The notes beneath the pieces were generated by a model. That model saw nothing but the letters and a program-made list of their open reading frames with translations. It did no database searches and was not told the DNA's origin. Both the position numbers and the translations under genes were made by a program. This document shows, piece after piece, positions 1-19,734 of a stretch of DNA of 64,000 nucleotides. Position 1 is the stretch's first letter; every line of letters starts with the position of its first letter. The stretch covers positions 1-64,000 of the forward strand of contig NZ_JHBW01000064.1 of NCBI RefSeq assembly GCF_001273845.1. The letters are read 5' to 3'. The stretch is from Leucobacter musarum subsp. musarum (GTDB taxonomy: Bacteria; Actinomycetota; Actinomycetes; Actinomycetales; Microbacteriaceae).

Positions 1-1
1 C

Positions 2-1486
2 TTAGTGGTTGCTCGGGAAGCCGAGGTCGATCTTCGACTGGTCAGCGTTCGGCCAGCGCGTGGTGACGACCTTCGAGCGGGTGTAGAAGTTGATCGACTC
101 GGGGCCGTAGATGTGCGAGTCGCCGAAGAGCGAATCCTTCCAGCCGCCGAACGAGAATGCGCCTACCGGCACGGGGATCGGCACGTTGATGCCGACCATG
201 CCGGCCTCGACCTCGAACTCGAACTGACGCGCTGCGCCGCCGTCGCGGGTGAAGATCGCGGTGCCGTTGCCGAACTGGTGCGAGTTGATGAGCTCGACGC
301 CCTCTTCGTAGGTGTTGACGCGCACGATCGCGAGCACCGGCCCGAAGATCTCCTCGAGGTACACCTTGCTGTCGGTCTTGACGTGGTCGATCAGCGAGAC
401 GCCCGTGAAGAAGCCGTTGCCTTCGAACTTCGCCTCGCGGCCGTCGACGACAACTGTCGCACCCTCGGCCTCGGCGCCGGCGACGTAGCCCTCGACGCGC
501 TCCTTGGCCTCGCGAGTGATGAGCGGGCCCATCTCGGAAGCCGGATCGGTGCCGTCACCGATCTTGAGGCCCGCGATGCGGCTGGTGAGCTCGGGGATCA
601 GGCGATCCGCGACATCGCCCACGGCGACGACGACTGAGACGGCCATGCAGCGCTCGCCGGCCGAGCCGTACGCGGCCGAGATGGCGGCGTCGGCGGTGAC
701 GTTGATATCGGCGTCGGGCAGCACCAGCATGTGGTTCTTCGCGCCACCGAGCGCCTGGACGCGCTTGCCATTGGCGGCTGCGCGCTGGTAGATCGAGCGG
801 GCGATCGGGGTCGAGCCGACGAACGAGACGGCCTTGACGTCGGGGCTGTCGAGCAGCGTGTCGACGGCGACCTTGTCGCCGTGCACGACGTTGAGCACGC
901 CGTCGGGCAGGCCGGCCTCACGGAAGAGGTCGGCGATGAACACCGATGCGGAGGGGTCGCGCTCAGAGGGCTTCAGCACGACGGTGTTGCCGCAGGCGAT
1001 TGCGCTCGCGATCATCCACAGCGGCACCATGACCGGGAAGTTGAACGGGGTGATGGCGGCGACGACGCCGACCGGCTGCTTGATCGAGTGCACGTCGACG
1101 CCGGTGGAGACCTGCTCATCGCGCTCACCCTTCAGGAGGTGCAGCAGACCCGACGCGAACTCGACGTTCTCGAGACCGCGAGCGATCTCGCCTGCGGCGT
1201 CAGACAGCACCTTGCCGTGCTCGCTGGTGACGATGGCGGCGAGTTCGGGGGTGCGCTGCTTCAGCAGCTGGCGCAGGTTGAAGAACACGTCGGCACGCTT
1301 GGTGAGGCTCGTCTTCCGCCACTTCGGCAGCGCCGCCTTCGCCGCGGCGATCGCCTGCTCGACGGTCTCGACCGACGCGATGCTCAGCTCGTGCTGGGCC
1401 TCGCCGGTCGCCGGGTTGTACACCGGCTGCGTGCGCTCTGCGGCGTCGATCTTCTCGCCGCCGATGACGTGGGGAATGCGTGACAT
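2..1486 (-). CDS. mmsA: CoA-acylating methylmalonate-semialdehyde dehydrogenase
   Basis: A 494-residue aldehyde dehydrogenase whose predicted reaction is oxidation of methylmalonate or malonate semialdehyde to propionyl- or acetyl-CoA, the last step of valine or myo-inositol breakdown. The nucleophile is Cys280 in GSAGERC. The usual general-base glutamate of ALDHs is absent (ALGGAKNH near 246-253), which is the known signature of the CoA-acylating MmsA/IolA subfamily. I chose the ATG at 1486 because AAGGACAG lies just upstream; a 16-residue upstream extension has no such site. The stop is at the window edge, so the downstream neighbour is unseen. The nearby oxidoreductase and isomerase genes make an IolA-like role possible, but iolB, iolC and iolD are not in the window. 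Confidence 0.93.
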   Translation of the reverse strand: MSRIPHVIGGEKIDAAERTQPVYNPATGEAQHELSIASVETVEQAIAAAKAALPKWRKTSLTKRADVFFNLRQLLKQRTPELAAIVTSEHGKVLSDAAGEIARGLENVEFASGLLHLLKGERDEQVSTGVDVHSIKQPVGVVAAITPFNFPVMVPLWMIASAIACGNTVVLKPSERDPSASVFIADLFREAGLPDGVLNVVHGDKVAVDTLLDSPDVKAVSFVGSTPIARSIYQRAAANGKRVQALGGAKNHMLVLPDADINVTADAAISAAYGSAGERCMAVSVVVAVGDVADRLIPELTSRIAGLKIGDGTDPASEMGPLITREAKERVEGYVAGAEAEGATVVVDGREAKFEGNGFFTGVSLIDHVKTDSKVYLEEIFGPVLAIVRVNTYEEGVELINSHQFGNGTAIFTRDGGAARQFEFEVEAGMVGINVPIPVPVGAFSFGGWKDSLFGDSHIYGPESINFYTRSKVVTTRWPNADQSKIDLGFPSNH

Positions 1487-1812
1487 ATAAGTCTGTCCTT
1501 CATGCTTGACGTGTGAGCGAGTGCGCATGAACATTGCTCATGGCACGCCGCATGGAGCGCTTCTTCACGCTCCTGACTCCATGTTCTCTGACGCTGGAGT
1601 ACCACATGGGACACACTCTGGGAACAAAACTAGCCGGGGATGCATCAGCTGTGTCTGTCTCGGGAGTGAGAACGGTTCATATTCTGAGGTGACGATGATG
1701 TGCTGCGCTCGGAGTCGAGGGCTGAGTGGAGATGAACCAGTATGTTCCCGCAGAGGGAGCCATTGCGGCTCGCGAACCCCGTTCCGCCGATGCTCGACGG
1801 TGAGGAACGCGC
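1487..1812. promoter_or_regulatory. Divergent promoter region, mmsA / GH3-like gene
   Basis: A 326-bp gap between divergent genes with no credible ORF. Bases 1612-1688 are clearly related to 4192-4267, upstream of the next divergent pair. Shared parts are ACACA-TCTGGGAA-AAAA at the left, TGCAT and TGTG in the middle, and a right block (1671-1688) matching 14 of 18 bases of 4250-4267. This looks like a duplicated promoter/operator unit. Confidence 0.55.
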
Positions 1813-2832
1813 ATGAGCCTCATGCGCGACGTGATGGCCATGCTCATGCCCACGATTGACACCCTGAGTGTGCAGCGATGGATGCTGCACGCGAGCGAGG
1901 CTGGCACCGAGATGATGGTGATGGGGATCTCACCCGCCGAACGCCGTGACGGATCCATGACGGAGGACCGCCTGCGGTTTGAAACCGCGGAGCTTTTCCG
2001 GCACGTCACTGGCGAGCTACGCAGTGCATCCCCCAACGGGCTCGGCTTCGCCGTTGAGCACGAACCATGGGGCATTCAGCGTCTGCATCAGCTGGTGCCC
2101 CCGTACGCCCGAGCAGAGGCGAACCAGGGGTTCGAAGCGAACAGTGCAGGAGTGGCGCTGTCGGCCACGCTTCTCGGAATCAATCTGTTTCTCGGTCCGG
2201 TGATTGAGGTGTCGCGAGGACACCACCCCCACCGATTCAGTCGCCGTCTGGACGTCGGGCTCAACGAGATGGGGCCGATCGCTGCTTCGTACATTCGCGG
2301 CACACAGTGCGCTGGGGTGCACGCCGCGGTGAAGTATTTCCCCGGGTCAACGTGTGCCGGCGTCGGCGGAGCCGCTCCGAGCGTCGATGAGCTGAGTGCG
2401 TCCGGAGAGTGGAAGCCGGAACGGCTGCGACCCTTTCTCACCGCGATTAACGCCGGTGTGCACGCCATCGTGCTGGGGTCAGATGTTATCGAGGAGCTCG
2501 ATCCGACACACCCGGCGTCCACCTCACGGCGCACGGTTTCGTTGCTGAGAGACGACCTCAACTTCGACGGTCTGATTCTCAGTGACGAGTTGGCGAGTGC
2601 GTCGATGCGGCAGCACGGAGACATCAGTGACACCGCGACCGCAGCAATTCGGGCGGGGGTCGATTTGCTCTGGGCTCCAGGCGGCGAGCAACTCTCCCAC
2701 ATTGCACGCGGGGTCGCCGCCGCAGCTCGAGCAGACGCGACTCTGCGCGACAGCATTGCGCGCAGCGCGACGCGCGTGCGCAGCTCCCGAGCTCGCACGT
2801 CGACTGACGACCCCGCGATTACGGTGCGTTGA
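1813..2832 (+). CDS. Divergent GH3 (NagZ-like) beta-N-acetylhexosaminidase family protein
   Basis: A 339-residue cytoplasmic TIM-barrel protein of glycoside hydrolase family 3, NagZ branch. It has GINLFLGPVIEV near 120-131, VKYFPG near 175 and the GH3 active-site pattern around LILSDELA, with the candidate nucleophile at Asp258. The His-containing KHFPGHGD/DSH loop that NagZ uses as acid/base is missing (KYFPGSTCAG instead), so activity may be altered or lost. It is a paralogue of the gene at 12665-13684, of exactly the same length. No signal peptide is seen. It converges with the MFS gene and overlaps its end by 14 bp. The start is preceded by GGTGAGGAA. Substrate unknown. Confidence 0.75.
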   Translation: MSLMRDVMAMLMPTIDTLSVQRWMLHASEAGTEMMVMGISPAERRDGSMTEDRLRFETAELFRHVTGELRSASPNGLGFAVEHEPWGIQRLHQLVPPYARAEANQGFEANSAGVALSATLLGINLFLGPVIEVSRGHHPHRFSRRLDVGLNEMGPIAASYIRGTQCAGVHAAVKYFPGSTCAGVGGAAPSVDELSASGEWKPERLRPFLTAINAGVHAIVLGSDVIEELDPTHPASTSRRTVSLLRDDLNFDGLILSDELASASMRQHGDISDTATAAIRAGVDLLWAPGGEQLSHIARGVAAAARADATLRDSIARSATRVRSSRARTSTDDPAITVR

Positions 2833-4036
2833 CCGGCTTCGGTGGCCGCGCGGCGCCGATCGCCAGGGTGCCGAGCAGCACGATGGTGAGCAACGGTACG
2901 AACGCCCAGCGCAGGCCGACGTGCTCGCCGAGGAAGCCGACCAGCACCGGGCCAAGCAGCATGGTCGTGTAGGCAATCGCGGCTACCGTTGCCACATCTC
3001 GCGTGGCCGTCGCGCGATTGTCACCAGCCGCCGAGAGTGCAACGGGGTAGCCGAGCGATGAGCCGATTCCCCAAGCGATGACACCGATGATGGTGACCGC
3101 CGGGATATCCGAGATCATCACGGTGAACACGCCGATTGCGCAGCAGAAGGACGTCACTCGCAGCATCGGTACTCGCCCGAACCGGTAGAGCAGATACGTG
3201 CCGGTCAGTCGACTGAGCGTCATCGCGGCGAAATAGGTGCTCAGCGTGAGTGCCGCGCTTCCCCGACTGAAGCCGTGCTCATCGACCAGCGAGAGGGACA
3301 ACCAGTCGTTCGCGTTGCCTTCCGCAAGGGCGATGCTGGCGGCGAGCAGGCCGAGCAGGAGCACGCGACGCGATTTCCACGGGCGGTAGACTGCCTGCGG
3401 CCGTGCGGTGTCAGCTGAGGGGTCCGGGGTCGATGCATCGGGGTGCGTCTCGCGCGTCTCCTGGGGAATCTGGCGGATCGCGACGGCGCTGAGCGCAATG
3501 ACCAGCACCCCGACAACACCGAGATGCACGGGGAACGCAACAGCGAACCGCTCCGCAATGGAGCAGGTGACGAGCGCGAGCAAGCCGCCGAAACTGAATG
3601 CGGCGTGCAAGACCGGGAGCAGTGGCTTACCGGAGGCGCGCTCCGCATCGTTGCCATTGACGTTGATCGCGACGTCATGCATGCTGAAGCACATCCCGTA
3701 GCACACCATCACGAGACCTGCGGCGATGACGCTGGGGCCGCCGAGCCACAGCAGTGAGGTGGCGGCAATGATCCCGACGGCTTGGATCATGATCCAGAGC
3801 CAGAGTGATCGTCGAATCGAAATCCGATCGATCACGCGCGCGGCGATCGTAAACCCGATCACCGAACCGACCGCAGGGCAGAGCACCAAGAGACTCATCT
3901 GCGAGGTGGACGCTTCGAGGTGGTCGCGAATCGCCGGAAGTCGTCCCAGCCACGAGCTGAACATGAAGCCGGTCAAACCGAAGAACCCACCCAGGCTGAT
4001 CGCCCAGCGTCGCACTTCACGTTTCGTGTACATCAT
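2819..4036 (-). CDS. MFS transporter (YbjJ-like)
   Basis: A 405-residue integral membrane protein with about 12 hydrophobic segments and no signal peptide. The N-terminal half carries the FSSWLGRLPAIRDHL region typical of the YbjJ-type MFS branch, many of whose members are called sugar or drug transporters without direct proof. It lies in a sugar-catabolism context and shares a 543-bp intergenic region with the divergent APC permease. The start could be either of two adjacent ATG codons (4036 or 4033). Its 3' end overlaps the convergent GH3-like gene. Substrate cannot be told from sequence. Confidence 0.82.
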   Translation of the reverse strand: MMYTKREVRRWAISLGGFFGLTGFMFSSWLGRLPAIRDHLEASTSQMSLLVLCPAVGSVIGFTIAARVIDRISIRRSLWLWIMIQAVGIIAATSLLWLGGPSVIAAGLVMVCYGMCFSMHDVAINVNGNDAERASGKPLLPVLHAAFSFGGLLALVTCSIAERFAVAFPVHLGVVGVLVIALSAVAIRQIPQETRETHPDASTPDPSADTARPQAVYRPWKSRRVLLLGLLAASIALAEGNANDWLSLSLVDEHGFSRGSAALTLSTYFAAMTLSRLTGTYLLYRFGRVPMLRVTSFCCAIGVFTVMISDIPAVTIIGVIAWGIGSSLGYPVALSAAGDNRATATRDVATVAAIAYTTMLLGPVLVGFLGEHVGLRWAFVPLLTIVLLGTLAIGAARPPKPVNAP

Positions 4037-4579
4037 CGTCCCTCGATACTCCGCGACGGACCGTGTTCAAGCGACCTCCGTCGTTCGAACCGGCGACCTG
4101 TTCGCTGATTCCTTGCAATCCCGTAACCGACGCTCATGTATTCGGTACGCGCCCCAATACCATAATTTCTCAGGTGAGTGCGAGCTCTCAAACACATTCT
4201 GGGAAGAAAAGTGCTCAGAGTTGCATGACGTGTGCATGCCATCGTGCCACAACCGTTCTTATGCTGATTTCTGCGATCGAATGTGGACGGCGGCGTCCAC
4301 CCCACATCCCGCAGCATTGAACCGCTCGGGTTCGGAGTTCAATCCAGAAATCACACCGAATACGCCCCCGCTGCCGAGGGCCAAGTAGCAATGATGAGTC
4401 ATGCGCACTCCGGAGAGCACTCCATAACTGTCACAACGGATAGCCCGACTCGCGCTGCCGTGCGGCAGCGCTGATCGGTGAGTTGCGCACTTCAGAGCGG
4501 AAGGAACCCTCATGAATTCGAGGATTAACCCCAGCGCGTTCGCCACCTGCGCGAACGCTCGGAACAGGGGAGGCGCACG
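4037..4579. promoter_or_regulatory. Divergent promoter region, MFS / APC permease
   Basis: A 543-bp gap. Bases 4192-4267 repeat the 1612-1688 element. TGTGCATGC at 4231-4239 recurs at 14533-14541 and, inverted, at 14353-14361, so it may be a regulator half-site. The last 70 bases hold a small leader ORF (separate entry). No other ORF here has a convincing ribosome binding site. Confidence 0.5.
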
Positions 4580-4583
4580 ATGA
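4512..4583 (+). CDS. Candidate 23-aa leader peptide coupled to the APC permease
   Basis: A 23-codon ORF (MNSRINPSAFATCANARNRG then GAR) starts at an ATG preceded by GGAAGGAA. It stops with TGA overlapping the ATG of the permease gene (ATGA), the usual layout for translational coupling. The coding strand contains an 8-bp perfect hairpin (4536-4543 pairs with 4551-4558, 7-nt loop) that could affect translation. It may be a regulatory leader peptide or simply an upstream ORF that opens the permease ribosome binding site. The amino-acid content (four Arg, four Asn, four Ala) does not clearly point to one amino acid. Confidence 0.4.
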   Translation: MNSRINPSAFATCANARNRGGAR

Positions 4584-6076
4584 GCGCGAACGCCACCTCT
4601 CAGACTTCGGCCCCGCAGGGTGAACTCCGCGGCAAGATGGGCACCCTACAGCTCGCGCTGACGGTGCTCGCCATGGCTGGCCCTCTGGGAAATGTGATCG
4701 GTGTGCTGCCCCTCGGCATCACGCGCGGAAACGGTATCGGTACGCCCACGATCTATCTGTTCGTCGGGCTGATCTTCTTGCTGTTCGCGGTGGGCTTCAC
4801 CACCATGACACGCAACCTGCCGAAGGCGGGCGCGTTCAACACCTACATCACCGCAGGCCTCGGGCGGCCGCTCGGTCTCGGCGCCGGGTACCTCACCACC
4901 TTCACCTACTTTGTGTTCGTGGTGGGCAGCTACGCCTTCTTTGGCGTCTCGACCGCGAACGCATTCGCGCTGTTCGGGATCACCGGAATTCCGTGGTGGC
5001 TCTTCAGCCTCGCGGAGTGGATGATCATCGCATGCCTCGGCTACTTCAACGTTGAGGTCTCGGGCAAGGTGCTCGCCGGCCTCATGGCCGTCGAAGTCGG
5101 TCTCGTGATGCTCTTCAACATCCCGGTCATGTTCACGGGTGGCCCTGAGGGGTACCAGTTCCAGTCGTTCCAGCCTGAATACGTGCTGTCGGGCGACCTG
5201 GGCGTTGCAACACTGTTTGCGATCGCGTGCTACATCGGCTTCGAGACCACCGTCATCTACCGCGATGAGGTCAAGAACCCGCGCAAGACCATCCCGCGCG
5301 CCATGTACATCGCCATCATCGGCCTGGGCCTCTTCTACTCGCTCTCTGCATGGTGCCTCGTGACCTTCTGGGGACCCGACAATGTGGCTGCGGTCGGCGC
5401 AGACGACCCGACGGTGCTCTTCAACCACGGCTTCCTGCACTACTTCGGGCAGACGTTCACCCAGATCATGACACTGCTGGTGGTCACCAGCGTCTTCGCC
5501 GGCGGTCTCTCGACGCACAATGCGTTCTCGCGGTACCTCTTCATGCTCGGTCGCGACGGCAACCTCCCCCGCTACCTCGGAACCGCGAACCCGCGATTCG
5601 GTTCGCCGTCGAAGGCATCGATCACCGGTACTGTGCTCGCCGTCATCTTCGTGCTGCCCTTCATCCTCGGCGGCATGAACCCGGTCACCATGTACGCCTC
5701 GATGTTTGGCTTCGGTACGTTCAGCCTCATTGTGATGTTCGTGCTGACCTCAGTCGCCGTGCTGCGCTACTTCCGCATCGTGCGGCATTCCGAGTCGGTG
5801 TGGAACACGATCATCGCCCCGGTGCTCGCAGTGTTGGGTATGGGGTTCTTGCTCGTGCTCTCGTCGATCTACTACCCGATGTCGATCGAAGCGCCTGTAC
5901 TCGTGGCCTCGCTTGAGCAACTGCTCCTGCTGCTGATCCTTGCCGCCGGCGTCGTTGTGGCGCTGCGACTGCGTCGCAGCAACCCTGCGGCCTACCGCCG
6001 GATTGGGAACACCGCAGGCGACCACCACGATGAGCGCCAGGCCACCGGCGTGCTTCCCATCGTGCGTCGCCAGTAA
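4580..6076 (+). CDS. APC-superfamily permease
   Basis: A 498-residue permease with about 12 predicted membrane helices and a short charged N-terminus ending in ELRGKMGT. This resembles the APC family of amino-acid/polyamine transporters. It is a clear paralogue of the permease at 11099-12565, sharing LRGKMGT at the N-terminus and related helices throughout. GGGAGG precedes the ATG. It is followed 22 bp later by a Gfo/Idh/MocA oxidoreductase on the same strand, so the two are probably co-transcribed. An APC carrier beside sugar oxidoreductases and GH3-like proteins suggests an amino-sugar, amino-cyclitol or glycosylated amine rather than a plain amino acid; this is inference. Confidence 0.85.
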   Translation: MSANATSQTSAPQGELRGKMGTLQLALTVLAMAGPLGNVIGVLPLGITRGNGIGTPTIYLFVGLIFLLFAVGFTTMTRNLPKAGAFNTYITAGLGRPLGLGAGYLTTFTYFVFVVGSYAFFGVSTANAFALFGITGIPWWLFSLAEWMIIACLGYFNVEVSGKVLAGLMAVEVGLVMLFNIPVMFTGGPEGYQFQSFQPEYVLSGDLGVATLFAIACYIGFETTVIYRDEVKNPRKTIPRAMYIAIIGLGLFYSLSAWCLVTFWGPDNVAAVGADDPTVLFNHGFLHYFGQTFTQIMTLLVVTSVFAGGLSTHNAFSRYLFMLGRDGNLPRYLGTANPRFGSPSKASITGTVLAVIFVLPFILGGMNPVTMYASMFGFGTFSLIVMFVLTSVAVLRYFRIVRHSESVWNTIIAPVLAVLGMGFLLVLSSIYYPMSIEAPVLVASLEQLLLLLILAAGVVVALRLRRSNPAAYRRIGNTAGDHHDERQATGVLPIVRRQ

Positions 6077-6098
6077 TCCACCGAACCGAAGGAGCAAC

Positions 6099-7286
6099 AT
6101 GACTGACCAGCAGGAGACCCCCGTTCGCGTAGGTGTGCTCGGTGCATGCGGGTGGATGGGGCGAGTGCACTCCAACGCCTACCAGAACATCGAGGCCTAC
6201 TACGGCAAGAAGCGCGGCACCGTCGAGGTGGCATGGCTCGTTGACGCCGAGCCCAACGCGCTCGCCGCGCAGGCCGCCAAGTTCCCGACGGCCCGCACCA
6301 CGGCAGACTGGCGCGAGGTGATCGATGATCCGGACGTCGACCTGATTGACATCTGCCTGCCCGACTCGCTGCACTACGAGATTGCCAAGGCTGCGATCCT
6401 GGCCGGCAAGCACGTCTACTGCGAGAAGCCGCTGAGCGACTCCGCCGCAGAGGCTCGCGAGCTCGCCGAGCTCGCGAAGGAGGCCGGTGTCGTCACGCGC
6501 GTGGGGTACTCGTTCATGCGCAACCCCGCACACGACGTCGCTCGCGACATCATCGAGTCGGGTGAGATCGGCGAGATCACCATGGTGAAAGCGTCTCAGC
6601 ACATTGACTCCTTCGGAGATCCGAACGCGCCGTTCATCTGGCGTGCCGACGGCAACCTCGCCCCCACCGGCATCACCGGTGACACGGGTTCGCACGTCTT
6701 CGCGATCCTCGACGGACTCGTCGGGAGCATCGAGTACCTCGTCGCCGACTCACGGATCATCACGCCCCAGCGGCCGATCGTCGAAGGCGCCGGCGCATAC
6801 GGTGCGAACACCGAGCTGACCGGCGATGAGCCGATGGCCGACGTGACCAACGCGGACGCCGTCAACCTCGTGTGCACGTTCTCGAACGGCGCGATGGGGC
6901 TGATCGATTTCAGCCGCACCGCGACCGGGCGCAAGTTCGAGCAGAAGTACGAGATCTACGGCACCCGCGGCAGCCTCGTCTACAACTACGATGAGATCAA
7001 CCGGATTCGCGTCTACTCGAACGACGACCCCCAGGGACGCCGTGGTTTCAAGGCCATCGACGTGGGCACCGAGAACGAAAACTTCGCTGCGTTCCTGAAC
7101 CTGCCGAACACGGGCCTCGGATACAACGAGACGAAAGTGATCGAGGCGAGCGAGGTCATTCGTTCCGTGACGACGGGCGAGTCCATGTGGCCCGATTTCG
7201 AGGCGGGCTTCCGCATCGCGCAGCTCGTTGAGGCCTGCCAGGTCTCCAGCGATCGCCGCGCGTGGGTTGACGTCGCGAGCATCTAG
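6099..7286 (+). CDS. Gfo/Idh/MocA family NAD(P)-dependent oxidoreductase
   Basis: A 395-residue cytoplasmic dehydrogenase. The N-terminal Rossmann fold begins VRVGVLGACGWMGRVH, and the family motif CEKPLS supplies the conserved lysine. The C-terminal alpha/beta domain contains GDTGSHVF, matching the family's G-x-x-x-D/H-x-x region. Members oxidise sugars, inositols or glycosides at a ring carbon. The ATG at 6099 has GAAGGAG 5 nt upstream; the open frame before it overlaps the permease and is not coding. It is probably in an operon with the APC permease, and the TIM-barrel isomerase at 9181 is a typical partner. The exact substrate is not evident. Confidence 0.9.
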   Translation: MTDQQETPVRVGVLGACGWMGRVHSNAYQNIEAYYGKKRGTVEVAWLVDAEPNALAAQAAKFPTARTTADWREVIDDPDVDLIDICLPDSLHYEIAKAAILAGKHVYCEKPLSDSAAEARELAELAKEAGVVTRVGYSFMRNPAHDVARDIIESGEIGEITMVKASQHIDSFGDPNAPFIWRADGNLAPTGITGDTGSHVFAILDGLVGSIEYLVADSRIITPQRPIVEGAGAYGANTELTGDEPMADVTNADAVNLVCTFSNGAMGLIDFSRTATGRKFEQKYEIYGTRGSLVYNYDEINRIRVYSNDDPQGRRGFKAIDVGTENENFAAFLNLPNTGLGYNETKVIEASEVIRSVTTGESMWPDFEAGFRIAQLVEACQVSSDRRAWVDVASI

Positions 7287-7300
7287 CCGAGAATCACTGA

Positions 7301-7349
7301 CACTGCTTCGGCAGTGCAATGGGGCCGGGCATCACTGATGTCCGGCCCC
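7301..7349 (+). terminator. Tandem terminator-like hairpins after the Gfo/Idh gene
   Basis: First hairpin: CACTGC-TTCG-GCAGTG (7301-7316), a perfect 6-bp stem closed by a stable UUCG tetraloop. Second: GGGGCCGG...CCGGCCCC (7321-7349), with a further CAT/ATG pairing inside. No long T tract follows, as is common in actinobacteria. Confidence 0.65.
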
Positions 7350-7768
7350 TGCGGCGTTGTGCGGGCGGAGCTTCGGTACATGCGCATAACTCAGGTGCAC
7401 GGAGTGGGCAGGATGTGTCAAAAACCTGCTCTGAGCGAGACGGGACAGCTGAGCGAGCCTTCAGTAGCGTGGAATGTACGGGTTTCTGGCGCGCTCGCGC
7501 GCGGCCAGAGCTCACCTTGACACTGTCTCCGCGAACGATGTCGCAATCTTTGGCGAGTGGCGCACCGGCTCATGAAAGCGATGTGGTTCATAGCTCAGAA
7601 GTCCCAGAACACCGACAGCTCGTGTACCTCTGACGTGATCCGCTCTATCTCGTAACGCTGCGATCGCGGACGCGTCAACACCGCTGCGTAGTTCCATTGT
7701 CACCTGCACAGCGGCGGTGGTGGTGCGGAACAACGCGGCCTTTCAACGAAGAAACACTTGGAGAGCCA
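7350..7768. other. Non-coding stretch upstream of the second MFS gene
   Basis: About 420 bp with no ORF that has both a ribosome binding site and credible composition. It presumably holds the promoter of the MFS gene at 7769. I see no obvious shared motif with the 1.6-kb and 4.2-kb promoter regions. Confidence 0.4.
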
Positions 7769-9070
7769 ATGACGTCGAACACTTCCGCAATATCGCGACT
7801 CACTCCAGCGCGCCTGCGCGCTGCCCGAATCGCTACATTTTTCTGCTTTTTCCAGCTGGGATCGGCCATCATCATGTGGTCGACCGGCACCTCCGCGCTG
7901 CGCGAACACATGGGCTGGGAAGGCGCTTCGGGTGATGCCAGCTTTGGTGCACTGGCAGCCTCGATCGGCGCCGGAACTGCGCTGGGCTGCGTGATTATTG
8001 GCCCCCTTGTTGACCGATACGGGCCGCGTCGCGTGGCGACCCCGCTGTTGGTGCTCTACCCGCTGTCATACCTGCCGCTCGCGTTCCTGCCCGGTCTCGT
8101 GACGGCAATGGTGGCAGGCGTGCTGATCGGTCTCTTCCGAGGCACGTTCAACACCACCATCAACACGCAGGGTGTTCATCTGGAACGCCACTACGGTCGT
8201 GCGCTGCTGGCCGGTTTCAATGCGCTCTACCCGCTCGGCGGCTTCGTCACGGGCTTCATCGGAAGCTTCTTCGCGCAGCGGTTCACCGACACCCCCGCCG
8301 TGGCCTTCATGTGCATCGGTATCCCGCTCGCCATCATCGGGCTCATCGCGGGTCGGTTCATCCTCGACAAGTCCGAGTTGATCGTGGTCGAGGATCGCCC
8401 GGTCGCCGAAGCTACCGGTGACGCGGCACGCACGGCGACGATGGCCGGGTTCACGCTCGTGCTGGCCCTGCTCGGCTTCTCGGTACTCTTCTTGAGTGGC
8501 GTCTTCTCCGAAAGCGCTCCAATCGACTGGGCGCAGGAGTTCGGCCGTCGCGTCCTTGAGGTGAACCCCGGTACCGCGGGTCTCGCGCTCTCGGTGTTCT
8601 CGGGTACGCAGTTCGTGACTCGCGTGATCGGCGATCGCGTCATCTCCGCACTCGGTGACCGTAAGACGCTGGTCGCCAGCGGTCTGATCGGTGCGCTGGG
8701 CGCGCTCACGGTGACGTTCGCTCCGAACATGGGCGTCGCCTACGTCGGGTTCGGCCTCATGGGTCTCGGCCTCGGTTGCATCCAGCCGATCACGATCTCT
8801 GCCGCGGGTCGCATGGACCCGAAGAACGCCGGTCGCAACATTGGCATCGTGAACGGTGTGGGCCACCTCGGATTCCTCGTGGGCCCCGCACTGCTGTCGG
8901 TGGTGGCGACCTCGGTCGGAATCCAGTGGCTCTTCATGATGCCCGCGATCCTCATGCTGTTCGTCGCGATCGCCGGGCCGCTGCTCATCCGTTTCGCTCC
9001 CGCCCGCACCACCGGTGCGGCTCAGGCTGAGGCGCAGATGGTTGAGGCTCCGGCTGCCGAGCGAGTCTGA
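7769..9070 (+). CDS. MFS transporter
   Basis: A 433-residue major facilitator protein with about 12 hydrophobic segments. The motif LVDRYGPRRVATPL after helix 2 fits the MFS loop signature, and IGDRVISALGDRKTL occurs in the second half. The N-terminus is short and cytoplasmic; the C-terminal 25 residues are Ala/Glu-rich. I chose the ATG at 7769 because TTGGAGAG lies upstream; the 24-residue extension does not look like a transporter N-terminus. It converges with the TIM-barrel isomerase gene. It probably imports or exports a compound of this cluster; substrate unknown. Confidence 0.83.
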   Translation: MTSNTSAISRLTPARLRAARIATFFCFFQLGSAIIMWSTGTSALREHMGWEGASGDASFGALAASIGAGTALGCVIIGPLVDRYGPRRVATPLLVLYPLSYLPLAFLPGLVTAMVAGVLIGLFRGTFNTTINTQGVHLERHYGRALLAGFNALYPLGGFVTGFIGSFFAQRFTDTPAVAFMCIGIPLAIIGLIAGRFILDKSELIVVEDRPVAEATGDAARTATMAGFTLVLALLGFSVLFLSGVFSESAPIDWAQEFGRRVLEVNPGTAGLALSVFSGTQFVTRVIGDRVISALGDRKTLVASGLIGALGALTVTFAPNMGVAYVGFGLMGLGLGCIQPITISAAGRMDPKNAGRNIGIVNGVGHLGFLVGPALLSVVATSVGIQWLFMMPAILMLFVAIAGPLLIRFAPARTTGAAQAEAQMVEAPAAERV

Positions 9071-9099
9071 CACCGTACGACCTCGTTTGCGTCGCTGAC

Positions 9100-9163
9100 G
9101 AAGTGACGCGCGTGCGGTGGGGGAGTATGCCGTAAGGCGCTCCTCCACTGCACGCGTCATTTC
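9100..9163. terminator. Bidirectional terminator hairpin between convergent genes
   Basis: An imperfect long inverted repeat. The left arm near 9100-9122 and right arm near 9143-9163 pair over about 20 positions with a few mismatches (GACGCG pairs with CGCGTC in the core). It lies exactly between two convergent genes. Confidence 0.55.
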
Positions 9164-9180
9164 GGGGCTCCGTGTGAGGG

Positions 9181-10038
9181 TCACACGCGCGCGGGTTGGA
9201 GTACGCGACGCCCGGACTCGAACGATTCACGTACGGCCTGCGCCAGGGACAGCGTGCGGAAGTGATCCGACATCACCTCGATGCCCCAGTGCCCGTCATA
9301 GGCGAGCGCACGCATCGCGTCGATGAAGCTCTCGATACCGAACTCTCCGGCACCGCACTGCAGACGGTGGTCGAAGGTGTCGCCGATGAGCGTGCCGACG
9401 GGTTCGCGAGCCCCGTCGTTGAGCTCGACGGCGAAGATGCGCTGCGGGGTGAGGCGCTCGACCAGTTCCGAGTATGGCTGGCCGCTGCGGAACACGCTCC
9501 AGATGTCGACGATGATGCCACCGGCGGGGTGGTCAGCCGTGTCAACGAACGCGCCCGCGTCAGTCGTGCGTGGAAACATCGAGAACGCGGCCGGTTCGAG
9601 CGCGATACGGGTACCGGCATCGGCAGCGCGCTGTGCGAAGCTGCGGAACCGGTCGACCAGCTGATCGGGGTCGGGGCGCTGGTCCAAGCGCGATCCCGCG
9701 CCGATCTTGATGTGGTGCGCACCGAGTGCTTCTGCAGCGGCGAGCAGATCGTCGATCGTCGATGCGACCTCTCCGTCTTCGGGGCGCCACCAGTGATCGA
9801 CGAACTCGATCTGGAGGCGCGTCATCCCGTTGTCTTCAAGAATGCGCCGCGCCGTGCGGTACCCGATGGTGTTGCGCGCATGACGCAAGTCATCGATACC
9901 GATACCGAAACCGGTGAAGCCGGCAGTGGCCGCAGCCGTCACCCGCGCTTCAAAACTGTGCGGGGAATTCGGGCCGGTCATGCCCGGGCGCACGTTCCCT
10001 GCCGTTGTCCAGCACGAAGCGAGAAGTTCTGTGCTCAT
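9181..10038 (-). CDS. Sugar phosphate isomerase/epimerase family protein (TIM barrel)
   Basis: A 285-residue protein of the xylose-isomerase-like TIM-barrel (AP-endonuclease 2) family. This is the fold of IolE, IolI and many keto-sugar epimerases and 3-keto-glycoside lyases. Seen features are QIEFVDHWW, a GAHHIKIGAG strand and IALEPAAF, whose acidic residues probably bind a divalent metal. The ATG at 10038 follows AAAGGAAC; a 23-residue upstream extension is Arg-rich and unlikely. It lies 80 bp after the SDR gene on the same strand, consistent with an oxidoreductase-isomerase pathway. The reaction is not identifiable from sequence alone. Confidence 0.82.
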   Translation of the reverse strand: MSTELLASCWTTAGNVRPGMTGPNSPHSFEARVTAAATAGFTGFGIGIDDLRHARNTIGYRTARRILEDNGMTRLQIEFVDHWWRPEDGEVASTIDDLLAAAEALGAHHIKIGAGSRLDQRPDPDQLVDRFRSFAQRAADAGTRIALEPAAFSMFPRTTDAGAFVDTADHPAGGIIVDIWSVFRSGQPYSELVERLTPQRIFAVELNDGAREPVGTLIGDTFDHRLQCGAGEFGIESFIDAMRALAYDGHWGIEVMSDHFRTLSLAQAVRESFESGRRVLQPARV

Positions 10039-10118
10039 TGCGAGTTCCTTTCGAGGGGTGGTGGTGCGAAAGCGCGTCCGAAGAAGCGCACCCGCACCAC
10101 CACGCACACTGGGACGGC

Positions 10119-10949
10119 TTAGCGCACCGGCTTGGGGTTCAGCCGGTTCATCAACGAGTGGCCAGCGTCGACCACGATGTTGATGCCCGTGACGTTGCGG
10201 GCGAGATCCGAGTTCAGGTAAATCGCCGTGTCTGCGACGTCGGCACCCTCAAGCAGGCTGACACCCTTGAGCGCGGTGAACTGGTGGCCGAAATCGAGGA
10301 GGTGATCCCGCGTGCCGAGCCCGGGGCCGCCCGCGAGGCGGTCGTACATCTCCTGCGTGTTGTTCATCGGAGTATCGATGAATCCGGGGGAGATCGCGTT
10401 GCAGCGCACGCCGAACGCGGCGGCCTCATACGCGACCTGCTTCATGAGGGCGAGCACGCCGGCCTTGCTGACACCGTAGGCGGTGATCTCTTCCTCGGGG
10501 TCGATGCCGTCGACCGACGAGATCATGACAAACGAGCCAGCCTCGCGCTCGATGAAGTGGGGCATGAACGCCTTGGCGGTCTTCCACGCGCCGGTCAGGT
10601 TCACACGCATCGTCGTATCCCACACCGACTCGGGCATCTCCCAGAAGTGGCCCAGAATGGTGACGCCAGCGTTGACGATGACCGCATCGACCTTGCCGGC
10701 GGCTTCGACCGCGGCCGCGGCCGCGGCGTCGAGCGCCTCCTGCGAGGCGACGTCGGCCTGGAATACGTAGGCGGTGCGGCCAAAGGACTCCACCGCGGCC
10801 ACCGCGCGAGCGTACAGATCGCTGTCTGCGGGCGCGAGATCAAGCAGCACGACGTCTGCCCCCTCGCGTGCTGATGCGAGTGCGTGAGCGTAGCCCTGCC
10901 CGCCGCCGCCGCCGGTGATTGCGACTACCTGGTTCTCGAGCAAACCCAT
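10119..10949 (-). CDS. Short-chain dehydrogenase/reductase
   Basis: A 276-residue Rossmann-fold oxidoreductase. The nucleotide-binding segment is VAITGGGGGQGYAHA, and the catalytic pair is in AYGVSKAG (Tyr-x3-Lys) after MISSVDG. The insert after the cofactor strand and the FIDTPMNNTQEMYD segment recall mycofactocin-coupled SDRs, but the match by eye is weak. The start at 10949 is the ATG of MGLLENQ; the longer open frame is a GC-rich artefact. It precedes the TIM-barrel isomerase on the same strand, so it probably oxidises a sugar or cyclitol intermediate of this cluster. Confidence 0.87.
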   Translation of the reverse strand: MGLLENQVVAITGGGGGQGYAHALASAREGADVVLLDLAPADSDLYARAVAAVESFGRTAYVFQADVASQEALDAAAAAAVEAAGKVDAVIVNAGVTILGHFWEMPESVWDTTMRVNLTGAWKTAKAFMPHFIEREAGSFVMISSVDGIDPEEEITAYGVSKAGVLALMKQVAYEAAAFGVRCNAISPGFIDTPMNNTQEMYDRLAGGPGLGTRDHLLDFGHQFTALKGVSLLEGADVADTAIYLNSDLARNVTGINIVVDAGHSLMNRLNPKPVR

Positions 10950-11058
10950 GATGTATTCCGTTTCTCGCGCGTGTGCGCGTGCATTGCGTGGGACCGCTCG
11001 GACGGTGGTACCGAGCGGGAACCGCACCAGGTGCGGTGGTGCACCGCAGGGGTGCACT

Positions 11059-11087
11059 CCCGGTCTGCCACGACGCAGCAGACCGGG
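11059..11087 (-). terminator. Hairpin after the second APC permease
   Basis: CCCGGTCTGC (11059-11068) pairs perfectly with GCAGACCGGG (11078-11087) over 10 bp, just beyond the permease stop on the minus strand. It may end or attenuate transcription before the SDR gene. Confidence 0.6.
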
Positions 11088-11098
11088 AAGCGGGGAGG

Positions 11099-12565
11099 CT
11101 AGCCCTGATCGCCGACGCGCGCGAAGCGCACGGGATCGCGTCGGCGCAAGCGGAGCCCGACGATGACTCCGGCACCGGCGAAGGCAGCGAGCGATGCGAC
11201 CGTGATGATGGTGCTGACGGCACCGCCACCGACCAGATCGCTGAGGTTCAGCGTCGCGATGACGAACATCACGAGAAACCCGATGCCGGCGAGCCCGGGA
11301 GCGATCGTCGATTGCCAGATCGTGACCTTGCCGTCTTTGACGCGACGGAAGTAGGCGATGATCGCGATACTCGTCGCGGCCCAGATGAAGACCACGCAGT
11401 AGGCGCCGACACCACCGAGGAAGGTGTACGTCTCCACGTCGTTCATGCCGAACATCGGGGGCAGCAGCATGGCGATGACGATGACGACCGAGCTCACGAG
11501 CGCAGCGATCATGGGCGAGCCGTGCTTCGCGTTGACGCGTCCGAGCGCGCGGGGCAGCACGCCGTCGCGAGCCATCGAGTAGAAGTAGCGCGACGACACG
11601 TTCTGGATCGCGAGGTTCGCGGCGAGGGTGCTGCCGATGAGCAAGACCGCGACGACGTCCGAGAAGGTCTGCGAGATGTAGACCGCGATCGACGTTAGCA
11701 CCGAGCCCGTCGGGTCGACCGACTCGGCGAGCGCGACGAGGGGGCTGAAACCGACGATGTAGGAGTAGGCGCTGACGGCGTACATCACACCGATGAGTGC
11801 GATCTCGATGTAGGTCGCCCGGGGCACGGTCTTCTGGTGATCCTTCGTCTCCTCACGGAAGACCTGGAGCGATTCGAAGCCCATGATCGAGAGCGCGGAG
11901 AACATCAGCGCGAGGCCGAACGAGCCATCAAAGAGGTGGGGGAACGGGTTGGTTCCGGCAAACCCTTCGGCGCCACCGGTGGTCAGCACGCGCAGGTTCC
12001 AGATCACGACGATGGCAATCTCGCAGAACATCACAATGGTCAGGATGCGCGACGAGAGCTCAACATTGAAGAGGCTCAGCACGAGGCAGATGGCCCAGCC
12101 AATGATCGCCCACATCAACCAGTTGCCGAAATCGATGCCGAGCACGTTGTTGACGAAGTTCGCGGTCATCACACCGAAGAGCGCAAAGGTGCCCGAGCCG
12201 AGCATGACATAGAGCAGGATCGAGCTGAACCCGCCGGCCAGGCCGGGGAGGCGACCCAAGCCCAGCGAAATGTAGGAGTAGAAGCCGCCGGGGCGCGTCA
12301 TGCGCACCGACATCGCGTTCAGACCGACGGCGAACGTGAGGATCACGAGGGTGAGGATTCCGAAGACGATGGGCGCCCCCAACCCGTTTCCGGCGTTGAT
12401 GACGACGGGCACGTAGCCCGCGAGAATCGCGAGCGGCGCATTGATCGCCAGAGCCGTCATCAGCAGTGAGAACGTGCCCATCTTGCCGCGCAGTTGCGGT
12501 TGGGTCGCGGTGTCACTCGTCTGCCCGCTCGGGGCGGGTGTGGGTCTCACAGCGGTCTCGGTCAT
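11099..12565 (-). CDS. APC-superfamily permease (paralogue of the 4580 gene)
   Basis: A 488-residue membrane protein with about 12 helices, related along its length to the permease at 4580-6076. Both have a Thr/Ala/Pro-rich N-terminal tail ending in LRGKMGT, then similar helices 1-8. GAGGAAATACCC precedes the ATG at 12565. It lies 99 bp downstream of the second GH3-like gene on the same strand, so GH3-like and APC genes are paired here. It is probably expressed with GH3, and by read-through with the SDR and isomerase. Confidence 0.85.
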   Translation of the reverse strand: MTETAVRPTPAPSGQTSDTATQPQLRGKMGTFSLLMTALAINAPLAILAGYVPVVINAGNGLGAPIVFGILTLVILTFAVGLNAMSVRMTRPGGFYSYISLGLGRLPGLAGGFSSILLYVMLGSGTFALFGVMTANFVNNVLGIDFGNWLMWAIIGWAICLVLSLFNVELSSRILTIVMFCEIAIVVIWNLRVLTTGGAEGFAGTNPFPHLFDGSFGLALMFSALSIMGFESLQVFREETKDHQKTVPRATYIEIALIGVMYAVSAYSYIVGFSPLVALAESVDPTGSVLTSIAVYISQTFSDVVAVLLIGSTLAANLAIQNVSSRYFYSMARDGVLPRALGRVNAKHGSPMIAALVSSVVIVIAMLLPPMFGMNDVETYTFLGGVGAYCVVFIWAATSIAIIAYFRRVKDGKVTIWQSTIAPGLAGIGFLVMFVIATLNLSDLVGGGAVSTIITVASLAAFAGAGVIVGLRLRRRDPVRFARVGDQG

Positions 12566-12664
12566 GGGTATTTCCTCTCGTAGTGCACAGCATTGTGGTG
12601 CGGAGTGTGTGAATGGTGGGAGCGAGGTTCCTGAGTGCTCGCGTCGCGGGTCGAGGGCGGATAT

Positions 12665-13684
12665 TTAGTGGCGGATCGCCCACCGTTCGGCGAACGATCG
12701 AACGCGGTGGGCAGTGCGGCTCAACAGAACGCCGAACTCCCCATCGCGTGTGGCTTCGTGCTGCAGCGCGTCAGACACCTCACGGATCTCCTCGCCGCCC
12801 GCGATCAGCAGCAAGTCGGCGCCGGCGCGCACGCTGGCGACCGCGGTGTCACCGATCGACCGACCGCGCATCGTGGAGGCCGCATCGAGGTCGTCCGTGA
12901 TGATGATGCCGGGGAACCCGAGGTGCTGGCGCACGCGCGACATCACGCGCGGTGAGGTGGCCGGAGGCTCTGAGGGGTCCAGGGCGACGACGGTAGCCGG
13001 TCCGAGCATGAGCGCGGGCACATTGCGACGCACCAGGCGGGAGAAAGGGATCTCCTGGCGCTCGAGCTCGTCGAGTGACGTGTGCAGCTCGATGTCGTGC
13101 TGCACCGGGTGCGCGTCAAGGTGGCTGTACCCGGGGTAGTGCTTCACCGTGGCCGCAACCGAAACATCGGCGCAGGCGTTGATGTACGCGCCGGCGATGC
13201 GTTCGACGGTGTCCTGGTCGTGCGACAGCGTGCGGCCGTTCAGCCACTCGTTCGTTCCGGTGATCTCGTCGACCACCGGCGCGAGGAAGAGGTTGATGCC
13301 CAGTCGACGCGCGCCCTCGGCGTACGCCGTGTAGCGCTCCCGCAGTTCGCGATCGGAGAGCTCCAGGGCTTCGACGAGCGGCGGCAGTGCGGGCAGCAGG
13401 TGCGACAGGCGCTGCACGCCGGTCGGCTCGGCATCGACTCCGATGAGCGTGCCGGGGCCGCCGATCTCCCGGAGGTGGGCCGTGGCCGCGGCAACATCCC
13501 ACCAGTGCTCAGACGCAATGCGCTCTGCGCTGACGCGGCGCGCGGCGTACTCCTCGCCCGTGGTGGCGAGCACGACGCTCACGCCGCCCTGCTCCAGGAA
13601 TTCGCGCTCTGCGGCGTCGGGTGCGAGGTCGGCGAGGAGCGGCAACAGTACGGCGTTGGCGTTGTGGGTGTGCAACGTGTGCAT
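12665..13684 (-). CDS. Divergent GH3 (NagZ-like) family protein, second copy
   Basis: A 339-residue cytoplasmic GH3 protein, paralogue of 1813-2832. Shared landmarks are GVQRLSHLLP, RRLGINLFLAPVVDE, VKHYPG and FPGIIITDDLDAA, with the candidate nucleophile Asp264. Unlike the first copy it keeps His in KHYPG and an LDAHP segment that may stand in for the NagZ Asp-His loop, though the canonical GHGD is absent. The start at 13684 has AAAGG upstream; the 91-residue extension before it is Pro/Arg-rich and not believable. Two paralogues of identical length in one cluster suggest divided roles. Confidence 0.8.
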   Translation of the reverse strand: MHTLHTHNANAVLLPLLADLAPDAAEREFLEQGGVSVVLATTGEEYAARRVSAERIASEHWWDVAAATAHLREIGGPGTLIGVDAEPTGVQRLSHLLPALPPLVEALELSDRELRERYTAYAEGARRLGINLFLAPVVDEITGTNEWLNGRTLSHDQDTVERIAGAYINACADVSVAATVKHYPGYSHLDAHPVQHDIELHTSLDELERQEIPFSRLVRRNVPALMLGPATVVALDPSEPPATSPRVMSRVRQHLGFPGIIITDDLDAASTMRGRSIGDTAVASVRAGADLLLIAGGEEIREVSDALQHEATRDGEFGVLLSRTAHRVRSFAERWAIRH

Positions 13685-14738
13685 CGGGGGCCTTTCGTGG
13701 GAAATATGTGAGGTGTCCGGGGCGATCTGTGCGCAGATGGGCCGCGGGATGGGTGAGTCGATGGGGTGACATCGACCTGCAGGATCTGGGTGCGACGGTG
13801 CGTCGGCGGAGGTGGTGAGACGGGACTTCGAATCGTCGGTGTCCCGGCGGGACCGTGGCGAGGAGCCACTCGTCCCCGAGCCGCCGGGTGGGGGAGTCAC
13901 CGGGTCGCCGAGGTGTCTGGGGTCTGCGAGGCGCTCGGGGAGCGCTTTCTGGACCACTCAGACGGAGCCGTGGAGCGCAGCAGAATCTACGTACGCCGAG
14001 GCCAGGCCTCACCAGCGCGGTGGTGCCACGAGTGCGACTGAATCCGATGATCAGATATCGGTTTCTCGATCACTGGTCAATGATCGTGTCGCATCTTCCG
14101 GTCAAGGCCGGAAGCGTGCATCAGTGCGAGATGCACGAGATCGACTGCTGCGGGTGCTGGCTCCCAGGCTCAGCGCAATGCAGACCGCCGATCGGGGAGC
14201 TGTCAGCTGCGATTGTCCTTAGCGGCGCTCGTGATCTGGCGCACGAATAGTGCGGTCAGACCGAACTTCGCTGAGTTCATCGTCATCGACATGGTTCTCC
14301 TTGCATCATTACAGGTTGGACAAGCACTCGCTGCTTGTCGGTGTCACCACAGGCATGCACACTCACTCGAACTCAAGGGTGAGGGCACGTCAGCCGGTTG
14401 ATGCGGTTCGTTTCGCACGTCGCCGACTTCTGCTCCACCGTAGCGATGAACGAAGTGGTGCGCAACGCTGCGATCAATGCCACGGCGTGGCGTGGTCTCG
14501 TGCCTGCGACAGGCCGAACTGCAGGAGCAACCTGTGCATGCGACAGGCACAGCACTGCACAGGCTGCTCTGTCCACATGCCGGCTGCCGCGGGTACATTG
14601 ATCGCCAATCCCACGGGGCACACCGCTCAGGGGTTGGTCTGGGCGACGGAGCTGTCGCCATACGCTGGGGCCTTTCGCTGCATCGTCGCATCGGGGCATC
14701 GAGAGCCGCTCCCCAAGAACACCAAACGAGGATCACCG
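13685..14738. promoter_or_regulatory. 1.05-kb regulatory region between GH3 and sugar ABC genes
   Basis: No normal gene is visible, although the two flanking genes are divergent and need at most a few hundred bases. Structured elements are: an inverted repeat GTGCATC...GATGCAC (14116-14122 / 14130-14136); an inverted repeat GACAAGC...GCTTGTC (14319-14325 / 14333-14339); TGTGCATGC at 14533-14541 and its complement at 14353-14361; and the small minus-strand ORF at 14203-14292. Bases 13690-14090 show nothing recognisable and could be a decayed gene. Confidence 0.5.
14203..14292 (-). CDS. Candidate 29-aa small ORF with strong ribosome binding site
   Basis: A 29-codon ORF (MSMTMNSAKFGLTALFVRQI, then nine more residues ending DNRS). 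AAGGAG lies 4 nt before the ATG at 14292, one of the best Shine-Dalgarno sites in the window. TAATGAT about 15 nt further upstream could be a -10 box, and a perfect 7-bp inverted repeat (GACAAGC/GCTTGTC, 14319-14339) lies just beyond. It reads toward the GH3/APC/SDR genes, about 520 bp ahead of them. It may be a leader peptide or small protein. No family is recognised. Confidence 0.4.
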   Translation of the reverse strand: MSMTMNSAKFGLTALFVRQITSAAKDNRS

Positions 14739-15497: not shown

Positions 15498-15502
15498 CCG
15501 CC

Positions 15503-16564: not shown

Positions 16565-16574
16565 TCTGACCGGG

Positions 16575-16599
16575 GAGTGACCGTTGCGGAACGCCACTC
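16575..16599. terminator. Bidirectional terminator hairpin
   Basis: GGAGTGACCGTT pairs with AACGCCACTC around a GCGG loop with a single-base bulge. It lies in the 42-bp gap between the convergent permease and PucR genes. Confidence 0.5.
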
Positions 16600-16606
16600 G
16601 GGGCGG

Positions 16607-18356: not shown

Positions 18357-18373
18357 GGCTGGATCCTGCAGCG

Positions 18374-19709: not shown

Positions 19710-19734
19710 CAGCATCGGGCAGCGGCACGCCGCG

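Follow-up and report, generated by a model that had tools for sequence, protein, structure and literature searches.

Deglycosylation by successive oxidation, elimination, hydration, and reduction is carried out by operons whose core consists of Gfo/Idh/MocA dehydrogenases and PF01261 proteins, as described in two studies (PMC10628242, PMC10066097). Two further papers deal with the role of an Asp-x-His dyad in NagZ-type GH3 enzymes (PMC6987092) and with the motifs that are diagnostic of HisD and HpsN (PMC11382572). Here we analyze a gene region of Leucobacter musarum subsp. musarum that brings relatives of these families together. It lies at the start of a 64,000-nucleotide stretch (hereafter the window) that opens contig C92 (NZ_JHBW01000064.1) in a 3.44 Mb genome of 124 contigs. 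The region encodes two GH3 proteins (GH3A and GH3B), two APC permeases (APC-A and APC-B), two MFS carriers, a Gfo/Idh/MocA dehydrogenase (Gfo), a TIM barrel, an SDR oxidoreductase, and MmsA. The two GH3 proteins belong to a clade with unusual active-site residues, members of this clade recur beside a set of oxidative genes in other organisms, and counterparts of that set are encoded elsewhere in the same genome. We consider it an even call that these genes belong to an oxidative catabolic island, gained by horizontal transfer, whose substrate would be a small glycoside or a sugar/cyclitol conjugate. The genes concerned are as follows.

2 to 1534, minus strand: MmsA, a CoA-acylating (methyl)malonate-semialdehyde dehydrogenase (TIGR01722, 678.5 bits, cut-off 448.5)
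1813 to 2832, plus strand: GH3A, a divergent single-domain GH3 protein of 339 amino acids (PF00933, 87.9 bits, cut-off 27)
2819 to 4036, minus strand: MFS1, a carrier (PF07690) akin to the MFS proteins that accompany the GH3 clade in other loci
4580 to 6076, plus strand: APC-A, a permease (PF13520, 98.3 bits; PF13520 and PF00324 matches)
6099 to 7286, plus strand: Gfo, a Gfo/Idh/MocA dehydrogenase resembling levoglucosan and L-glucose dehydrogenases (LevoglcsnDh model, 299.4 bits, below the cut-off of 650)
7769 to 9070, plus strand: MFS2, a carrier (PF07690, 109.3 bits)
9181 to 10038, minus strand: a xylose-isomerase-like TIM barrel (AP_endonuc_2, PF01261, 88.4 bits)
10119 to 10949, minus strand: an SDR oxidoreductase nearest to mycofactocin-coupled SDRs (TIGR03971, 230.1 bits, cut-off 300)
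11099 to 12565, minus strand: APC-B, a permease (PF13520, 102.2 bits; PF13520 and PF00324 matches)
12665 to 13684, minus strand: GH3B, a single-domain GH3 protein of 339 amino acids (PF00933, 105.7 bits, cut-off 27)

The open reading frames of a first-pass annotation, made from the letters alone, were recovered with the same starts and with 339 amino acids for both GH3 proteins, and its family assignments for Gfo, SDR, TIM barrel, MmsA, and the two MFS carriers held against Pfam and NCBIfam profiles. The GH3B frame remains open upstream as far as a GTG start that would give 430 amino acids. Both GH3 proteins exceed the PF00933 gathering score. Among the best 25 NCBIfam matches per protein, MmsA alone passed a curated cut-off; the SDR scores below that of the mycofactocin-coupled family, and the TIM barrel has weak relatives only (QuiC, 43.1 bits; PDB entries 2g0w, which is Lmo2234, and 5hmq).

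Neighborhoods of the GH3 clade were compared at 19 loci outside this genome: 16 plasmid records (15 of the best 20 among 167 with any match, plus one Paracoccus record) and three genome loci (from 3 of 297 genomes matched, each species being represented by one genome and the best 4-8 candidates scored in each). The compared stretches reached about 14 kb on each side of the GH3 gene, or less at the end of a record or contig (L055, G1134). A same-clade GH3 occurred with genes for GMC oxidoreductases, thiamine pyrophosphate (TPP) enzymes, or HisD-like proteins at 17 of the 19 loci, and TPP and HisD were both present at 14; a GMC oxidoreductase of the rhizobial GMC1 type was found at 16 and a related MFS carrier at 12. 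Less frequent were the rhizobial Gfo (7/19), the rhizobial TIM barrel (6/19), a second GH3 (2/19), and an APC permease (1/19). These loci are the top of a similarity list with many near copies (Shinella, Rhizobium) and the counts are not independent; three of them (L034, L035, and L099) could carry TPP or HisD just outside the compared stretch, and the Arthrobacter GMC gene falls outside one stretch (L037) but within another (L065). The clade spans Pseudomonadota and Actinomycetota. A separate contig scan, insensitive to the clade, yielded 28 NagZ-like loci at 25-35% identity and none at the 38-45% typical of the clade.

The first-pass annotation had proposed that GH3 and APC genes form duplicated modules and suggested looking for their co-occurrence elsewhere. 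This was seen at one of the 19 loci, in Arthrobacter, where the APC protein matches best as a urea-carboxylase-type permease (below the model cut-off) and has no similarity to APC-A or APC-B at an E-value of 1e-10. GH3-APC adjacency as a general rule was therefore rejected, the single case involving an APC of another subfamily. The statement that no described pathway pairs these families agrees with the open-access literature searched by titles and the starts of abstracts, where we found neither a paper pairing GH3, APC, and oxidative families nor a published characterization of the rhizobial or Arthrobacter GH3 clusters; the pairing itself is the part that did not last, being seen at that one locus. 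The wider proposal of an uptake and degradation pathway is reasonable, in that the region does look like a catabolic cluster, with transporters and with enzymes of sugar oxidation and isomerization; its duplicated GH3/APC modules and NagZ-type chemistry are not supported.

The closest single counterpart is on plasmid pStoSoilB3 of Arthrobacter sp. StoSoilB3, where GH3, APC, ThuA, Gfo, TPP, HisD, and MFS genes lie within about 14 kb and ThuA adjoins Gfo. Its Gfo is 63-64% identical to that of the window and its MFS 34-35% to MFS1. When the Arthrobacter TPP and HisD proteins were searched against the Leucobacter genome, the best matches fell on contig C91, at 192703 (40-41%) and 189826 (75%). 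The end of this contig encodes an MFS carrier, an ABC importer, an SDR, a Gfo, a PucR regulator, HisD, GMC, TPP, ThuA, an iron alcohol dehydrogenase, a 4HBT-domain protein, and a malic enzyme, with identities to Arthrobacter of 75% for HisD, 60% for ThuA, 56% for GMC, 40% for MFS, and 36-38% for Gfo (Gfo2). The last 21 bases of C91 (198384-198404) are the first 21 of the window contig (window 1-21). GH3 clade members and the TPP/HisD pair are both encoded in this genome, the latter at the end of C91, whose junction with the window is ambiguous. As a side observation, the StoSoil strains come from santhopine-treated soil; a santhopine link of the cluster is a lead only, because the soc genes are placed as ancestral to the StoSoil lineage in PMC8262997.

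The distribution of these genes suggests that the region was likely acquired horizontally. With GH3B as query, only the genome itself was recovered among 54 genomes of the genus (E <= 1e-25, all candidates scored), in a family sample (1/249), in an order sample (1/396, as a profile, E <= 1e-50), and in a phylum sample (1/396, E <= 1e-30); the Gfo query at E <= 1e-110 likewise gave 1/396 in the order sample. These samples overlap, the thresholds are strict, and beyond the genus each species is represented by a single genome, with the best 4-8 candidates per genome scored. The location of relatives on plasmids derives partly from the choice of a plasmid collection.

Several observations weigh against a single island. 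A second contig, C99, terminates in these 21 bases as well (42278-42298), again as the 3' end of mmsA, and the C91 set may therefore lie elsewhere than next to the window. On C99 a class-III aminotransferase gene stands directly behind the mmsA stop codon, in the orientation of an mmsA operon, and in the window that stop codon is at the contig edge; the mmsA 3' end is a fork in the assembly, two mmsA-like genes may be present in the genome, and the contig before the window may be C91 or C99. Clear counterparts of pStoSoilB3 within the window are limited to Gfo, the GH3 proteins, and MFS1 (MFS2 reaches 30% and the SDR 34%), and the closer counterpart of the plasmid MFS (40%) is on C91. The TIM barrel, APC-A, and APC-B have no pStoSoilB3 counterpart at the E-values used, and homologs of the rhizobial and Arthrobacter HAD and DeoR proteins were not found in the window at 1e-8. 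Two of the 19 loci (L057 and L059; G1162 and G1125), which are near copies of each other, lacked TPP, HisD, and GMC around the GH3 gene in the compared stretches. Finally, the window genes occupy both strands in several transcription units, namely mmsA (minus), GH3A (plus), MFS1 (minus), APC-A followed by Gfo (plus), and MFS2 (plus), and then GH3B, APC-B, SDR, and TIM barrel on the minus strand.

These points bear on the explanation that survives best among the alternatives, which is that the first 14 kb are a mosaic of two or three unrelated catabolic sets (mmsA; GH3A/MFS1; APC-A/Gfo; TIM barrel/SDR/APC-B/GH3B) gathered at an insertion-prone site, with no common substrate for the GH3 and APC proteins. 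We regard this as possible but doubtful. It would account for the alternating directions of transcription and for the gene order of the window, which occurred at none of the 19 loci, and it would fit the history of the two pairs. Homology within the pairs, described as paralogy at first pass, was borne out, with 32% identity over 264 amino acids for GH3A and GH3B and 36% over 483 amino acids for APC-A and APC-B; at such distances both pairs are homologous but old, as judged from their sequences. In a maximum likelihood tree of 23 of the 24 clade members and five outgroup rows (L035, a near copy of L034, was dropped), GH3A clusters (99/99 support) with the Arthrobacter GH3 and a third copy from this genome (C91, 5.8-6.9 kb), and GH3B falls elsewhere. 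Forcing GH3A and GH3B together as sisters cost 21 log units (approximately unbiased (AU) test, p 0.021, a value that shares the pull of the model between these two long branches), which is moderate evidence that they are not a sister pair. The nearest compared relatives of the permeases are both from Rhodococcus opacus, a protein of strain 1CP for APC-A (41%) and one of strain PD630 for APC-B (43%), and no direct repeats of at least 30 bases were found in window 1-20000. The idea of duplicated GH3/APC modules was rejected on these three grounds: GH3A is closer to the third own copy, each permease resembles a Rhodococcus protein more than it does the other permease, and no repeat was detected.

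The APC pair is what a mosaic would predict, two such genes within 8 kb being unremarkable because the genome has 26 APC permeases in 3.44 Mb and simulation expects 1.5 adjacent pairs within that distance by chance. The GH3 pair fits it less well, since the genome has three clade members and the probability of two within 12 kb is about 0.02; as this distance was chosen after seeing the pair, their closeness is only weakly beyond chance. The mosaic is further opposed by the joint occurrence of Gfo, GH3, and MFS1 counterparts in Arthrobacter and by paired GH3 genes at two rhizobial loci.

As to the chemistry that an oxidative island would perform, the best structure matches of the Gfo protein are 4gqa (255 bits) and levoglucosan dehydrogenase 6a3f (250 bits), followed further down by scyllo-inositol/L-glucose dehydrogenase 5ya8 (188 bits), and its nearest plasmid relative stands beside a same-clade GH3 in Arthrobacter. 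A further point against the reading is that Gfo reaches 299.4 bits against the LgdA model (NF052479), whose cut-off is 650; because this score is so far below the levoglucosan-dehydrogenase cut-off, oxidation at C3 by Gfo would be a guess. The gene pair of the oxidation-elimination-hydration-reduction pathways is present, with the Gfo gene (6099-7286) and the PF01261 TIM barrel (9181-10038) near each other, on opposite strands and not in one operon. A Gfo-like locus of Rhizobium CCGE532 (59%) has no GH3 within 14 kb in an incomplete gene table, and relatives of the window APC, TIM, and SDR proteins occur in other catabolic clusters that have no annotated GH3. Relatives of the TIM barrel (39%) in Rhodococcus opacus (L068, 11989-22542) and Sinorhizobium (L067, 3300-16515) lie beside genes for intradiol dioxygenase, NTF2, and SDR proteins and ABC importers, with maleylacetate reductase in Rhodococcus opacus, neighborhoods that hint at a sugar- or cyclitol-to-aromatic route.

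An inositol-like pathway could also be envisaged for an amino- or glycosyl-cyclitol freed by GH3, with Gfo in place of IolG, the TIM barrel in place of IolE/IolI, the TPP enzyme in place of IolD, and MmsA in place of IolA. This is improbable in our judgment. The second-best NCBIfam match of Gfo is indeed iolG (110.6 bits), iolD matches the TPP enzymes of Arthrobacter (313.5 bits) and C91 (299.8 bits), MmsA is present, and the TIM barrel is of PF01261, but the iolG and iolD scores are far below the curated cut-offs of 355 and 715, and acetolactate synthase models give the TPP enzymes better scores (about 402 bits, likewise below cut-off).

The GH3 clade is distinguished by its active site. The catalytic nucleophile of GH3 enzymes is an Asp that follows Ser or Thr. 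An Asp at the aligned position is present in GH3A, GH3B, and altogether 22 of 24 clade members, the other two having Cys (L104, 15002-15820; L061, 10551-11582). GH3B keeps the NagZ-type Asp84, Arg151, Lys181, and His182, the nucleophile Asp264, and a candidate dyad, Asp190-Ala-His192. GH3A keeps the nucleophile, with Asp84 replaced by Glu and His182 by Tyr in GH3B numbering; at the positions that contact the sugar in subsite -1 of NagZ-type enzymes, GH3B has Asp84, Lys181, and His182, and GH3A has Glu, Lys, and Tyr. The Asp-x-His dyad on the loop after KH(F/Y)PG is missing in GH3A and in 23 of 24 members, GH3B being the only one with the pattern (DAH, in a loop two residues shorter). As a control, 25 of the 28 NagZ-like loci match the pattern, and the three misses comprise a DTH outside it (L006), a DPH (L027), and one locus that gave no motif (L024). 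An additional N-terminal trio, Glu45/Arg55/Glu59, is invariant in all 23 members covering that stretch. Two rhizobial loci carry two GH3 copies of which one has the nucleophile changed from Asp to Cys (TCDLDH), and both Cys copies form one branch of the tree. The copy of L061 has 343 amino acids; the L104 case (RCAM05350) is weakened because sequence errors or decay may affect that record, which looks damaged, with fragmented TPP, GMC, and MFS matches and short GH3 proteins of 307 and 272 amino acids.

These residues point, in a proposal that we hold to be unlikely as a whole, to a GH3 lineage that would no longer be a NagZ hydrolase. The nucleophile and the -1 site would be kept and the Asp-x-His acid/base replaced by a subfamily-specific constellation, with Glu45/Arg55/Glu59 as candidates. 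Substrates of such enzymes would be conjugates that carry a good leaving group, or keto glycosides produced by the neighboring dehydrogenases. In some lineages the enzyme would form a heteromer with a pseudo-enzyme, a second GH3 that has lost the nucleophile (Asp to Cys) or is altered at the sugar site, as GH3A is.

A role of both GH3 proteins as NagZ enzymes in the recycling of imported muropeptides is very improbable. It is in line with the GH3 fold, with NagZ-like proteins as the best structure matches of both, and with the NagZ residues of GH3B. The scores against the NagZ equivalog NF003740 are 66.6 bits (GH3A) and 92.3 bits (GH3B), both far below the cut-off of 207, the clade branches apart from the NagZ-like controls in the maximum likelihood tree and mostly lacks the dyad, another NagZ-like protein with the dyad is encoded on contig C116, and the genomic setting is one of sugar oxidation and not of the cell wall. 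The release of N-acetylglucosamine by NagZ-type chemistry, assumed in the first-pass annotation, is not supported, given these scores and, for GH3A, the missing catalytic dyad and a Lys-His pair without its His.

On C91, the HisD-like protein (189826-191067) scores 448.9 bits against the TIGR00069 domain model, above the cut-off of 243.8. A G-[RK]-Y-P-L motif occurs in 15 of 15 cluster HisDs (the C91 protein and those of 14 other loci), none of which has the histidinol motif G-S-A-P-L; two other HisD-family proteins of this genome (L114 and L115, 35%) are outside the 15, and their motif was missed by the pattern. Because this third motif differs from both described ones, neither a histidinol nor a 2,3-dihydroxypropane-1-sulfonate (DHPS) substrate is supported, and the histidinol dehydrogenase reading of the C91 protein was rejected on the G-S-A-P-L motif. 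The sequences would possibly represent an uncharacterized HisD subtype. Least probable of all is an organosulfonate route with a DHPS dehydrogenase (HpsN) and a sulfonated glycoside as the imported conjugate, since, despite the closer match of the C91 protein to sulfopropanediol dehydrogenase structures (362.9 bits) than to histidinol dehydrogenases (272.4 bits), the diagnostic G-R-Y-A/S-H given in PMC11382572, with its sulfonate-binding His, is missing from all 15, as is the histidinol motif.

Under the favored reading of an oxidative catabolic island, a conjugate would be taken up by APC-A/APC-B and the MFS carriers, perhaps together with a ribose-type ABC importer, judging by family and position. 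GH3B, in which the nucleophile of a retaining enzyme and the residues that bind the -1 sugar are preserved, would cleave it, and GH3A, having diverged, would either act on a different substrate or serve as a partner. The LgdA-like Gfo would oxidize a ring hydroxyl, and the keto product would be eliminated, hydrated, or isomerized by the TIM barrel, as in the oxidation-elimination-hydration-reduction pathways, both roles being suggested by family. Carbon would leave through the SDR and MmsA with the HisD-like, GMC, TPP, and ThuA proteins of C91, whose presence and relatedness are observed and whose role is predicted. A vague GH3 annotation becomes a testable group, namely a clade whose active site is unusual and which in two phyla is associated with one oxidative set (TPP, HisD-like, GMC, Gfo/Idh, and MFS). 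The substrate, once found, would assign a function to the HisD subtype, the TPP enzymes, and the GH3 clade together, and the missing acid/base, if real, would offer a natural case of how a retaining glycosidase works without one, or of what else the clade does.

Three further features, at 14.3-19.4 kb of the window, are possible parts of the island.

14250 to 16564, plus strand: ribose-type sugar importer, with an ABC ATPase (14250-15497, PF00005) and a permease (15494-16564, PF02653), possibly a member of the island
16607 to 18175, minus strand: PucR-family protein (PF07905, PF13556), possibly the regulator of the island
18374 to 19357, minus strand: sugar-binding protein of an ABC importer (PF13407, 188.1 bits), possibly a member of the island

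The ATPase and permease have paralogs beside the HisD/TPP set on C91 (42% and 33%), and the PucR protein is 44% identical to the C91 PucR that adjoins HisD. An inverted repeat at 19624-19709 (32-bp arms, 97% complementary, 22-base spacer) lies between the sugar-binding-protein and GntR genes. Elsewhere in the window, 20681-27509 encodes phosphonate uptake and catabolism (a phosphonate-binding protein, and a PhnX-like hydrolase and a phosphonate-associated alcohol dehydrogenase that exceed their NCBIfam cut-offs), and a third APC permease, of the AA_permease type (PF00324, 395 bits), lies at 42797-44299.

Compared with NagZ and the GH3 beta-N-acetylglucosaminidases, the window proteins share the single-domain GH3 barrel and the nucleophile Asp motif, with the Lys-His motif complete in GH3B, whereas their clade is separate, lacks the dyad motif in all members but one, and has the extra invariant Glu45/Arg55/Glu59. 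With the levoglucosan LgdA-LgdB-LgdC pathway and the GlycDH/AtOGE/AtHYD/Gfo operon of A. tumefaciens, the region has in common a Gfo/Idh protein and a PF01261 TIM barrel, and levoglucosan loci also have MFS or ABC uptake systems and PucR regulators among their neighbors (PMC10066097, PMC10628242); it differs in a Gfo below the LgdA cut-off, in one TIM barrel instead of two, and in GH3, APC, HisD, and TPP, which the portions available do not name there. The rhizobial TPP-HisD-ABC-GMC-GMC-HAD-DeoR-GH3-MFS cluster (Rhizobium, Sinorhizobium, and Shinella plasmids) has an ABC importer for sugars, often HAD and DeoR, and, in the compared stretches, no match to an APC, no TIM barrel or Gfo of the window type, and no close MmsA (one aldehyde-dehydrogenase match of 32%, L101), but its GH3 belongs to this clade (GH3B identity 38.7-44.6% in the rhizobial records listed) and is often accompanied by an MFS carrier, a Gfo/Idh protein, a TIM barrel, and GMC oxidoreductases. 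The pStoSoilB3 cluster has a single GH3, its own type of APC (urea-carboxylase-type-like, below cut-off), and annotated HAD and DeoR genes; it shares with the window the GH3, the MFS, and a 63%-identical Gfo, and its ThuA, TPP, HisD, and GMC have their counterparts on C91.

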